Assembly (NCBI GenBank): GCA_024691085.1
Contig: JAILNX010000010.1
Span: 18,094-82,093 of the forward strand
Length of the DNA stretch: 64,000 nucleotides
Origin: Clostridiales bacterium
GTDB taxonomy: Bacteria; Bacillota; Clostridia; Christensenellales; CAG-138
Direction of reading: 5' to 3'
This document shows, one piece after another, positions 7,545-63,064 of the stretch. Under the pieces are notes generated by a model. The model did no database searches. It had not been told where the DNA came from and was given only the letters and a program-made list of their open reading frames with translations. The first letter of the stretch is position 1. Each line of letters opens with the position of its first letter. Position numbers and translations under genes: made by a program.

Positions 7545-7572
7545 TTGATTTTTACGATCGATGTGATATAAT
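7545..7572 (+). promoter_or_regulatory. Promoter of tRNA-Leu
   Basis: TTGATT (7545-7550), 16 nt spacer, TATAAT (7567-7572), placing the start about 4 nt before the mature tRNA 5' end at 7583. Confidence 0.7.
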
Positions 7573-7582
7573 CTAAAAACAC

Positions 7583-7670
7583 GCCGGTGTGATGGAATTG
7601 GCAGACGTGACGGACTCAAAATCCGTTGGGCTAATCACCCGTGTGGGTTCGAGTCCCACCACCGGCACCA
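7583..7670 (+). tRNA. tRNA-Leu (anticodon CAA)
   Basis: Type II tRNA with a long variable arm and encoded CCA. Acceptor GCCGGTG (7583-7589) pairs with CACCGGC (7660-7666); the anticodon loop CTCAAAA gives CAA, reading UUG. T-arm GGGTTCGAGTCCC. The 3' end from CGAGTCCC to CCAA is repeated exactly 184 bp downstream, and a perfect hairpin begins within the CCA. Confidence 0.95.
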
Positions 7671-7704
7671 ATCCCCTTTGTCCCAACGGGACAAAGGGGA
7701 TTGG
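7668..7704 (+). repeat. Perfect hairpin beginning in the tRNA-Leu CCA
   Basis: A 17-bp uninterrupted stem: 7668-7684 (starting with the CCA of the tRNA) pairs with 7688-7704 (ending TGG), with a 3-nt loop. It is followed by a short T run (TATTTT). It could be an intrinsic terminator, but its base includes the mature tRNA end, which is unusual. Confidence 0.85.
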
Positions 7705-7841
7705 TATTTTGTAAGGGACTCGAAGCCCAATGCCGTCCGTCCTGCGGACGAATCAGACGGCATTGGGCCGGGTTTTGTCAAAAGGCGCGAGTGCGAGCGG
7801 TGTGAGCGAGCACGAGACGCATCTTTTGCAAAACGAGTCCC
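7705..7841 (+). repeat. Type A tRNA-associated structured unit, copy 1
   Basis: Begins GTATTTTGTAAGGGACTCG. The outer inverted repeat GGGACTCG (7715-7722) / CGAGTCCC (7834-7841) equals the tRNA T-arm 3' half. Inside, a 13-bp perfect stem (7725-7737 with 7756-7768) holds a CGTCC/GGACG hairpin, then come GGCCGGGTTTTG and GCGAGTGCGAGCGGTGTG. These blocks recur after tRNA-Ser, and the opening block also after tRNA-Thr. Small open reading frames across this stretch look spurious. Confidence 0.75.
7802..7840 (+). repeat. 39-bp direct repeat, copy 1
   Basis: An exact 39-bp copy of 8024-8062, starting GTGAGCGAGCACGAGACGC and ending CAAAACGAGTCC. It is the 3' half of type A unit 1. Confidence 0.9.
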
Positions 7842-7855
7842 ACCACCGGCACCAA
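7834..7855 (+). repeat. Duplicated 3' end of tRNA-Leu
   Basis: These 22 bp are identical to 7650-7671 (T-arm 3' half, acceptor strand, CCA plus A). The pair brackets 162 bp containing a hairpin and the type A unit, as direct repeats would bracket an insertion at a tRNA 3' end. There is no room for an integrase gene between them. Confidence 0.9.
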
Positions 7856-7892
7856 CAAAAGGATGGGCAGCAAAGCTGCCCATCCTTTTGTT
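7854..7892 (+). repeat. Perfect 18-bp hairpin after the tRNA-Leu 3' copy
   Basis: 7854-7871 pairs with 7875-7892 without mismatch around an AAA loop. It occupies the same place relative to the copied CCA as the hairpin at 7668-7704 does to the real tRNA, but its sequence is unrelated. Confidence 0.85.
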
Positions 7893-7910
7893 AATATCGG
7901 AATGAACGAT

Positions 7911-8002
7911 GGACCCCGAATTCGGCGCAAGCCGAATTCAGAGATTTTGCACACGCAAGCAGGCATACACGCAACCCGTGCGAAATCGGGGTTCAGAGTC
8001 CC
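7911..8002 (+). repeat. Type B tRNA-associated structured unit, copy 1
   Basis: The outer pair GGACCCCGA (7911-7919) / TCGGGGTTC (7986-7994) is T-arm-like. Stem 1 is GAATTCGGC (7918-7926) / GCCGAATTC (7931-7939) with a GCAA tetraloop. Stem 2 is GATTTTGCAC (7943-7952) / GTGCGAAATC (7978-7987) enclosing ACGCAAGC and GGCATA. It ends GGGTTCAGAGTCCC. The unit after tRNA-Ser has the same layout with different stem sequences. Confidence 0.75.
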
Positions 8003-8023
8003 TCCTGTTTTGCCCAAGGAACT

Positions 8024-8062
8024 GTGAGCGAGCACGAGACGCATCTTTTGCAAAACGAGTCC
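8024..8062 (+). repeat. 39-bp direct repeat, copy 2 (partial type A end)
   Basis: Identical to 7802-7840. Here it is not followed by a tRNA 3' end but by GACCTTTTG, so it looks like a decayed or recombined type A remnant closing the tRNA-Leu array. Confidence 0.9.
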
Positions 8063-8138
8063 GACCTTTTGTTAAGCACTTTAAGTGTGCTCGACGCCCC
8101 TCTTGCCGACAATGATATCCTTTTTCGCCCCGACTTTC

Positions 8139-25659: not shown

Positions 25660-25668
25660 AAGCACGCT

Positions 25669-25784
25669 GAAGAGTAAAGCTGCGTTCGTAAAGTGTTGGC
25701 CGAACGGGGAGTTGACGGCCAAACGAAAAGCTCATGCGCCTTCGCGCAGGAAGCTTGCGGTCCACAGCCTGCATCCCGCTTCAT
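25669..25784 (+). promoter_or_regulatory. Tetrahydrofolate (THF) riboswitch
   Basis: The segment carries the THF riboswitch landmarks in order: AGAGTA near the start, the GTAAAGTG strand, the loop GAACGGGGAGTTG (family form GAATGGGATGTCG), its closing stem TTGGCC / GGCCAA, then ACGAAAAGC, a GC-rich hairpin, GCGGT and the closing GCATCCCGCT. Downstream, CCTCCTT (25809-25815) can pair with AAGGAGG (25838-25844), the ribosome site of the next gene, giving a translational expression platform. The gene controlled is folate transport and glutamylation, as expected for the class. Confidence 0.88.
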
Positions 25785-57300: not shown

Positions 57301-57309
57301 AAACTGTTA

Positions 57310-57447
57310 TCTTTTCATGCTTTCGAACAGGGCGGACTGCTGCGCTTCGCTTGCAAGGCCGCCCATCGGCACCCTTTTCGGCCATCCACCGGATGCCCGA
57401 AATTGCCTTTAGCAACCGGTTGCCAACCTTCGAATCCCTTCGAAATA
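57310..57447 (-). repeat. Type A tRNA-associated structured unit, copy 3 (divergent)
   Basis: On the minus strand, after the tRNA-Thr hairpin, it opens TATTTCGAAGGGATTCGAAG, matching the opening of the tRNA-Leu type A unit (TATTTTGTAAGGGACTCGAAG). It then differs in its stems but has GGGCGG-CCTTGC and GCGAAGCGCAGCAG blocks near 57330-57365, like the type A core. Next is tRNA-Pro. Confidence 0.6.
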
Positions 57448-57484
57448 CCAAACCTTATTGGCTCTGGGAGCCAATAAGGTTTGG
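57448..57484 (-). repeat. Perfect hairpin beginning in the tRNA-Thr CCA
   Basis: 17-bp perfect stem: on the plus strand 57448-57464 pairs with 57468-57484, the latter including the complement of the tRNA CCA end. Loop 3 nt. Same architecture as the tRNA-Leu hairpin with unrelated stem sequence. Confidence 0.85.
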
Positions 57485-62615: not shown

Positions 62616-62704
62616 GGAGCGGTATCGAAGTGGTCATAACGGCCCTGACTCGAAATCAGGTGTAGGGCAACCTACCGTGGGTTCGAATCCCACCCGCTCC
62701 GCCA
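62616..62704 (+). tRNA. tRNA-Ser (anticodon CGA)
   Basis: 89 nt type II tRNA with long variable arm and encoded CCA. Acceptor GGAGCGG pairs with CCGCTCC; anticodon loop CTCGAAA gives CGA, reading UCG; T-arm GGGTTCGAATCCC. Its 3' end reappears at 62838-62864 with one extra base. Confidence 0.95.
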
Positions 62705-62741
62705 CGACAATGAGCATCGGCAAAGCCGATGCTCATTGTCG
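62705..62741 (+). repeat. Perfect 17-bp hairpin directly after tRNA-Ser
   Basis: 62705-62721 pairs with 62725-62741 around an AAA loop, starting at the base after the CCA. Confidence 0.85.
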
Positions 62742-62760
62742 TATCGAGAGGAACTGATTT

Positions 62761-62850
62761 GAACCCCGAATTTGCGTCAGCAAATTCTAAGCGCAGCGGC
62801 ACGCAAGTCGGATATGTATTCGGTTACTCGCTGCGCAGGGTTCAGAATCC
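62761..62850 (+). repeat. Type B tRNA-associated structured unit, copy 2
   Basis: Opens GAACCCCGAATTTGC. Stem 1 GAATTTGC (62768-62775) / GCAAATTC (62780-62787) with a 4-nt loop; stem 2 GCGCAGCG (62791-62798) / CGCTGCGC (62829-62836) enclosing CACGCAAG and GGATA; closes GGGTTCAGAATCCC. Same layout as 7911-8002, with both stems changed on both strands. Confidence 0.75.
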
Positions 62851-62864
62851 CACCCGCTCCGCCA
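62838..62864 (+). repeat. Duplicated 3' end of tRNA-Ser
   Basis: 27 nt equal to the tRNA-Ser 3' end (62679-62704) except for one inserted A in the T-loop. The last 19 nt including CCA are identical. Confidence 0.9.
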
Positions 62865-62905
62865 AATAACAGAGGGTACCCAGCGGGTACCCTCTGTTAT
62901 TTGGC
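62861..62905 (+). repeat. Perfect 21-bp hairpin including the copied CCA
   Basis: 62861-62881 (starting GCCA) pairs without mismatch with 62885-62905 (ending TGGC) around a 3-nt loop. Confidence 0.9.
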
Positions 62906-62910
62906 ATTGA

Positions 62911-62990
62911 TAAAGGGACTCGAAGCCGCGATAAGGAAACGCAACAGTGTTGCGTTTTCCGCGGCCGGGTTTTGCGCCGCAGGGCGAGTG
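62911..62990 (+). repeat. Type A tRNA-associated structured unit, copy 2
   Basis: Opens AAGGGACTCGAAGCC like copy 1. The stem GCCGCG (62925-62930) / CGCGGC (62960-62965) encloses a longer GGAAACGCAAC / GTTGCGTTTTCC hairpin, followed by GGCCGGGTTTTG and GCGAGTGCGAAGCGGTGTG. No third tRNA 3' copy follows. Confidence 0.7.
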
Positions 62991-63064
62991 CGAAGCGGTG
63001 TGTGGACGGATTTCACCAACGGCGCGGCAATTTGTTTCGCTGGCATCATTACTTTTATAATCTA

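Follow-up and report, generated by a model that had tools for sequence, protein, structure and literature searches.

Modules resembling the tRNA-linked repeats of Escherichia coli stand behind tRNA genes in a genus of Clostridia

Repeats that carry the end of the gene they follow are known from Escherichia coli as tRNA-linked repeats (TLRs). According to PMC8144298, which cites Egan and Landy (1978), Rudd (1999) and Bosl and Kersten (1991), TLRs have been described since 1978 and were without a known function before its own work on the three of the rRNA operons. The same paper gives 22 TLRs at ten loci for E. coli K-12, situated in tRNA or rRNA operons with one to five per locus, and states that the 3′ end of a TLR has 18–19 bp identical to the gene immediately upstream. 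The repeats rrA/B/F, which lie behind 5S rRNA, are transcribed and bind Hfq and CsrA, and the copied 5S end has been proposed as a processing signal (PMC8144298). RtT/rttR is the TLR behind tyrT/tyrV; PMC2965389 likens RtT to BIME-type attenuators. TLRs are the closest known thing to the modules described here, a connection that the initial annotation of this DNA did not make.

Work on integrase sublocation in integrative elements has described an identity block that extends from the T-loop to the 3′ end of the tRNA. In integrons, the fold of the attC site is conserved while its sequence drifts, the site being a single hairpin with extrahelical bases.

The window, meaning the whole stretch of 64,000 nucleotides that was analysed, lies on contig C21 of the 2.0-Mb genome of an uncultured bacterium (G000; 38 contigs, 94% complete). 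Behind its tRNA-Leu(CAA) gene stands an array composed of perfect hairpins, two types of folded unit (A and B) and copies of the tRNA 3′ end:

7583..7670, + strand: tRNA-Leu(CAA), the host tRNA (ARAGORN; Rfam RF00005)
7667..7705, + strand: first perfect hairpin, 18-bp arms 7667–7684/7688–7705, 3-nt loop
7715..7841, + strand: type A unit (predicted fold, coordinates, inverted repeat I4)
7715–7722: type A P1, GGGACTCG, antisense to the tRNA T-arm, pairing with the copied CGAGTCCC
7725–7768 and 7772–7834, + strand: type A P2 and P3 (predicted fold)
7834..7855, + strand: exact 22-nt copy of the tRNA-Leu 3′ end (= 7650–7671), a direct repeat
7854..7892, + strand: second perfect hairpin, 18-bp arms 7854–7871/7875–7892
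7911..8002, + strand: type B unit, three-way junction (model R1, 77.9 bits)
7995..8005, + strand: shortened tail of the type B unit, one extra nt, then GAGTCCC and 3 nt
8023..8066, + strand: remnant of a type A 3′ end with partial tail (44-nt direct repeat D1, 98% to 7801–7844)

All the pieces that the initial annotation had reported in this array are present; a correction is needed for the first hairpin, whose arms are 18 and not 17 nt long. Its 5′ start falls inside the tRNA 3′ end. In an Rfam scan of 7560–8120, the tRNA alone reaches its gathering cut-off. Collinsella-1 RNA (RF01700) matches at full length over the first copy and second hairpin, with 21 bits against a cut-off of 35; it is matched in two of 21 genomes, never above the cut-off, and was judged a chance result of generic hairpin similarity. 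Togavirus FSE, sX14 and the other sub-threshold Rfam matches are chance hairpins. Elsewhere in the window, a THF riboswitch lies at 25668–25783 on the + strand (RF01831, 71.2 bits).

The same grammar had been proposed for tRNA-Ser and, in part, for tRNA-Thr. The features at these two loci are as follows:

62616..62704, + strand: tRNA-Ser(CGA), host tRNA of the second array (ARAGORN)
62703..62742, + strand: perfect hairpin right after the CCA of tRNA-Ser
62761..62864, + strand: type B unit 62761–62851 (R1, 90.2 bits) and full copy of the tRNA-Ser 3′ end 62845–62864
62863..62903, + strand: second hairpin of the Ser array
62915..63030, + strand: type A-like unit, no own-tail copy detected, right end approximate (sequence)
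57301..57484, − strand: insert between tRNA-Thr(CGT) and tRNA-Pro(CGG), with a further repeat inside
57448–57484, − strand: perfect hairpin at the CCA in the Thr insert
57429–57439, − strand: antisense T-arm in the Thr insert, AGGGATTCGAA

At tRNA-Ser(CGA), the hairpin, type B unit, full copy, second hairpin and type A-like unit were all located, the order being B then A, the reverse of the Leu array. The Thr locus is the partial case it was taken for: the hairpin and the antisense T-arm are present, and no copy of the Thr 3′ end was detected in the Thr(CGT)–Pro(CGG) insert.

The type B unit is a three-way junction with strong compensatory change. Seventeen units were cut by eye and then folded (the A1 seeds were likewise picked by eye), and 15 of them fold as a stem P1 around P2, which has a short loop, and P3, which has a loop of mostly ∼30 nt and lies next to P1; for SerGGAc and GlyTCC the minimum-energy fold has no such shape. 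Among 14 aligned units, 89.3% of cells pair (66.7% when shuffled), both sides are changed in 65 cells (23.4 when shuffled) and 16 of 23 pairs are compensated. When the strands are slid by 1–3 columns, the pairing and compensation measures collapse. P1 pairs within the type B unit in 95.2% of cells. R1, a covariance model of type B, gave 134 hits on 75 sources (60 stretches from relatives, selected for having an R1 hit, together with the own stretches and two named loci), of which 110 were kept after removal of 23 antisense shadows and one cut-off hit. Covariation was also run on a wider type B set, A2 (all rows, some shadows included); because A2 was fitted to the model, the 14-unit alignment is the cleaner test. 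The P3 loop keeps the unpaired letters TCAC.CAAGC ... AAG ... CT, most of them at 60–85%, as counted in the first 112 rows of A2 (88 after de-duplication, some shadows included), which suggests a putative binding site.

The layout of the modules is regular. First units begin 53–61 nt behind the tRNA in 48 of 55 locus/tRNA sets, with outlying distances of 41, 201, 212, 228, 241, 890 and 1277. The hairpin after the CCA has an uninterrupted stem of 13–21 bp (mean 17.7) in all 48 modules directly behind a tRNA, and its letters mostly differ between loci. A complete copy runs from the T-loop to the CCA, comprising up to the last ∼20 nt of the tRNA (positions ∼57–76). A new hairpin with a stem of at least 10 bp follows 30 of the 38 copies that reach the CCA and 10 of the 40 truncated ones, three of the 81 units considered having too little flank. 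Since hairpins follow full copies far more often, the tRNA 3′ end plus hairpin is a unit of organisation, as the initial annotation had supposed. At the tRNA-Gly-CCC genes of G006 and G012 (loci L193 and L195), an inverted tRNA copy after the hairpin forms a long palindrome with the tRNA; the inverted part is the T-arm in L193 and the 3′ end in L195.

The tails are specific for the tRNA they follow. A same-strand upstream tRNA is found in the fetched stretch for 81 of the 110 type B units, representing 18 tRNA species, and the tail best fits this tRNA in 71 of the 81, with two ties and eight failures, mostly short tails. The summed tail score is 1252, compared with at most 627 over 300 label shuffles. 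P1 forms 492 pairs with the own T-stem (at most 427 in 1000 shuffles), its 5′ strand making a mean of 6.07 of 7 pairs with the own tRNA. In 40 of the 81 tails, the run covers 18–19 of the last 19 nt with no more than two mismatches; the rest are shorter. In G045, a genome of another genus in the same family (91% complete, 6% contamination), tRNA-Met ends in ...GATAGCCGCTACCA compared with GATTGCCGC in this genus, and the module tail has the same A as its own tRNA-Met end. Locus L129 is a real swap, in which a Ser-CGA tRNA carries a Ser-GCT tail, and an array on G002:C31, in a stretch with no tRNA, has two tails, first Gly-TCC and then Gly-CCC.

ARAGORN finds 44 tRNAs in the window together with the fetched stretches of G000. 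A copy of the own 3′ end (score of at least 12) lies within 400 nt downstream of 14 of the 41 tRNAs with enough flank, and the same test upstream finds copies at none of 40. In six genomes from other genera, none of 79 tRNAs is followed by an own-3′ copy, whatever its type, these loci being the best-scoring tRNAs of each search rather than all. With short flanks and duplicates dropped, the tRNAs examined are 41 of 44 for G000, 34 of 35 for the sister genome G010, 79 of 100 for the other genera and 21 of 21 for E. coli. R1 has 22 matches in G000, two of which are antisense shadows, leaving 20 sense units; 17 of the 20 stand behind a tRNA on the same stretch, the scope being tRNA loci. The other three are on stretches without a tRNA: two on contig C10 have Gly-CCC tails, and an element at that tRNA may have displaced them; the third adjoins an Ala-CGC-like tail where C16 ends. 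Other tRNAs of G000 (Val, Glu, Thr) have the hairpin with different units and with tails that are shorter or absent, and the less complete modules are those inside tRNA operons (Thr, Tyr, Leu-TAG, Gly-GCC).

Many arrays lie near contig ends, for example L117, L118, L123, L128, L134, L135 and L162; assemblies seem to break there, so the unit counts are probably lower bounds. An assembly artefact is ruled out because independent assemblies share the layout with different letters; some arrays do reach contig ends. The statement that no integrase is local is upheld by the PF00589 search: at E 1e-8, G000 has three matches, on contigs C7, C9 and C22, and none on the window contig C21. Nor, as regards membership in integrative elements, did this search find a site-specific recombinase in or near the element. 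The match on C9 (C9:5635–6177, locus L059) lies beside an element-free tRNA-Thr-GGT at C9:6366, and a recombinase gene stands likewise beside an element-free tRNA in L060, L177 and L182 (judged by eye from the sequence alone).

R1 matches 12 of the 13 genomes of the genus and none of the 18 other genomes in the nearest-relative set; under stricter filters it matches one of 90 other genomes of the family, G045, again at a tRNA and with that tRNA's own tail. The initial annotation had taken the arrangement for a system and not a local accident, and both the difference between downstream and upstream flanks and the presence of modules in 12 genomes of the genus and one of another genus, well beyond a single assembly, bear this out.

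Comparison with G010 gives matching positions without the element. This genome has no R1 match, and own-3′ copies are found at two of the 34 tRNAs examined, both with type A units. The Thr–Pro tRNA gap is 19 bp in G010 and 181 in G000, the Tyr–Leu gap 9 and 160, the Leu–Gly gap 21 and 142, and the Gly–Cys gap 102 (hairpin kept) and 326. In G010, a looser terminator lies right after the CCA of Ala-GGC, Ser-GCT, Pro-CGG and others. A similar-looking terminator follows the last copied CCA at Trp, SerGGA and GlnCTG in G000 and at Met in G045, and the first copied CCA at Trp in G001. Since the terminator stands after the CCA when the site is empty and after the copied CCA when it is occupied, the pattern was judged by eye to be an insertion footprint, left by an exact event in which positions ∼57–76 are duplicated. 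A flanking-protein search for matching sites returned four loci, all without a tRNA; the nearest relatives of the protein are 60–61% identical and come from Clostridia bacterium, one from goat omasum.

Other features share these surroundings. Hairpin arrays spaced by TGATGT/TGATAT occur behind looser terminators in L046 and, by eye, in L052, L181, L187 and L232. Behind a tRNA array, L046:2601–2673 scores as Gut-1 RNA (RF01706, 56.7 bits, cut-off 50), which the relevant section of PMC2864571 reports solely from human-gut environmental sequences. Genes for the 23S rRNA-intervening-sequence protein (PF05635) stand behind tRNA arrays or terminators at L046:2774–3181 and L143:3647–4018 (E 3e-25 and 1e-28) and, by eye, behind tRNA-Cys in L183; a GNAT gene in L145 and a DUF6572 gene in L046 have comparable positions.

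A module comprises a strong hairpin at the CCA, a compact folded unit and a copy of the own tRNA, often with a further hairpin. The favoured explanation, given an even chance of being correct, is that such modules are TLR-like: a structured read-through RNA, ended at the copied tRNA 3′ end and gained by precise insertion. If transcription ran on past the hairpin, or traversed a tRNA operon, it would produce a folded unit RNA on which the copied T-stem/acceptor strand and CCA form a tRNA-like 3′ end. Processing of tRNA ends or the following terminator would set that end and yield a small stable RNA, an outcome similar to the proposal for RrB of E. coli (PMC8144298). The gain event would place hairpin and unit exactly behind the CCA, duplicating positions ∼57–76, after which modules would multiply in tandem and decay, with occasional sharing between two tRNAs whose tails are then re-matched. 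A read-through RNA, with the unit working as RNA, is favoured on two grounds: the conservation of structure and loop letters, and the presence of some modules within tRNA operons. Transcription of the unit behind single tRNAs may be rare, given the strong hairpin in front of it; since roughly half of the tails end before the CCA (40 of 81, run below 18/19), a CCA end would not always be needed. Against the favoured view stand the eight misfit tails among 81, the L129 swap, the mixed G002:C31 array, three E. coli TLRs with a closing complement no better than chance and the less complete modules in operons. The insertion footprint shows how modules arrive, not what moves them. Between the mobile or templated element and the structural RNA tail offered by the initial annotation the evidence is divided: compensatory change and conserved loop letters speak for RNA, whereas the exact placement between CCA and terminator, together with the duplicated 3′ end, points to an insertional origin.

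Mobile DNA is an unlikely alternative. The units would be the ends of tiny non-autonomous elements inserting at the T-loop or 3′ end of tRNA genes, with the copy as attachment-site identity block or target duplication, the unit as an attC-like single-stranded recombination site, and a host or phage enzyme acting in trans as the mover. When complete, the copy does run from T-loop to CCA and is followed by the apparent original terminator, the matching tRNA gaps are empty in G010, genes sit between copies at SerGGA and Trp, and L129 carries a foreign tail. Sharing across tRNAs is clear for Gly-TCC and Gly-CCC of G003 and G002: the two G003 modules have 88% identity over 202 bp and each carries the tail of its own tRNA, and the differences between their hairpins are paired changes. 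A moving element would, however, bring the tail of its donor, whereas the tails follow the host tRNA, and G004 has units without a PF00589 match (this genome is only 61% complete). Moreover, among the 106 of 110 units used (tRNA identity taken from the tail where the stretch has no tRNA), 36 have their nearest relative outside the locus at the same tRNA of a different genome (6.9 expected) and 16 at a different tRNA of their own genome (21.6 expected), so units are mostly inherited in place. An equally low probability is assigned to a neutral by-product: replication would switch templates at the tRNA 3′ end, leaving a direct copy and an antisense strand, neither with a function, while repeated fold-back correction would keep the hairpins perfect. 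This suits hairpins that are perfect with largely different letters at each locus, an antisense T-arm and a copy in the same place, tandem multiplication, truncated tails and patchy occupancy; it fits poorly with P1 and P3, which are not short-loop hairpins and yet change their pairs together, with the conserved loop letters and with a spacing as constant as that of the 48 of 55 first units.

Less probable than these is the notion of minute self-retargeting elements, which would insert behind almost any tRNA, rebuild the 3′ end and closing stem from the new host, bring a terminator and be able to gather genes; if true, Clostridia would have a tRNA-anchored, integron-like system, with the E. 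coli TLRs as a distant counterpart. Less credible again than the neutral and mobile-DNA readings, and judged very improbable, is a tRNA-folding switch that regulates tRNA maturation, the antisense strand of the unit invading the precursor T-arm and the copy capturing that strand. The closing strands of type A are antisense to the own T-arm, and in E. coli tyrT/tyrV the lowest-energy fold of the TLR and the last 30 nt of the tRNA has the antisense strand paired to the tRNA 3′ end. The type B P1, however, pairs inside the unit in 95.2% of cells, compared with 6.07 of 7 pairs of its 5′ strand with the own tRNA, and the antisense strand sits behind a strong hairpin. Reverse transcription primed by tRNA was considered because copies begin near position 58, where it would stop; nothing singles it out. 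The 5S-linked TLRs, which have an 18-bp copy (PMC8144298), speak against a stop at a tRNA modification.

In this lineage a genome has up to about twenty units that covary and are specific for their tRNA, and the same tRNAs are naturally occupied in some genomes and empty in others. An old curiosity, the TLR, thereby becomes testable as to the RNA ends produced, the binding partner of the conserved loop and the way in which a module acquires the copy of its host tRNA. Such repeats could be mistaken for tRNA fragments or att scars.

For the comparison with E. coli, five K-12 stretches were hand-picked. The own-3′ copy is seen in the TLRs at tyrT, tyrV (three), argV, argZ, argQ and lysV. A copy lies downstream of seven of 21 tRNAs, which is not a rate because the stretches were so chosen, and also upstream of four of 21 because the repeats stand in tandem. 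A closing complement to the copy of at least 8 nt is found in five of eight TLRs measured: 10 nt in the three tyrV repeats (P 0.005 each) and 8 nt at argV (P 0.02) and tyrT (P 0.085), with argQ, argZ and lysV at chance level, all by shuffling that preserves base composition only. At lysV, a terminator hairpin precedes the unit and another follows the copy.

The E. coli TLRs and the modules described here have in common the copy of the own 3′ end, the presence of several per locus and small internal hairpins. The 3′ end of the modules is that of the gene upstream (71 of 81 best fits, 40 of 81 near-full runs), and location in operons of the TLR kind is matched by the 17 of 20 G000 units behind a tRNA. 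A closing stem antisense to the copy is found in type A here and in five of eight measured E. coli TLRs, and in having a terminator between tRNA and unit, lysV resembles the modules. Copies start at position ∼57 here and at 58–59 in E. coli. Peculiar to the modules are the type B junction with its T-stem mimic and extra T-loop nucleotide, the long hairpin in each module and a far wider use among tRNAs. The Rfam RtT model (RF00391), which matches all four tyr repeats of K-12, has no match in the window or in eight other loci of the genus and family; 'same layout' or 'works like' is therefore the proper wording, not 'homologous member'. The two kinds agree in layout.

The att scars of integrative elements share the identity block from T-loop to tRNA 3′ end; unlike them, the copies here come with a repeated covarying fold and without a dedicated integrase (PF00589), features that together rule out att scars as the whole explanation. 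The attC sites are similar in their conserved fold with drifting sequence and in the AAC/GTT at the P1 ends, which here is simply the universal GTTC of the T-arm; unlike attC, the modules have a three-way junction and are tied to tRNA genes, and no IntI was identified. No earlier account of such repeats in Clostridia was found in the open-licence literature. What is new here are covarying three-way-junction modules with own-tRNA tails in Clostridia, the TLR layout being already known from E. coli.
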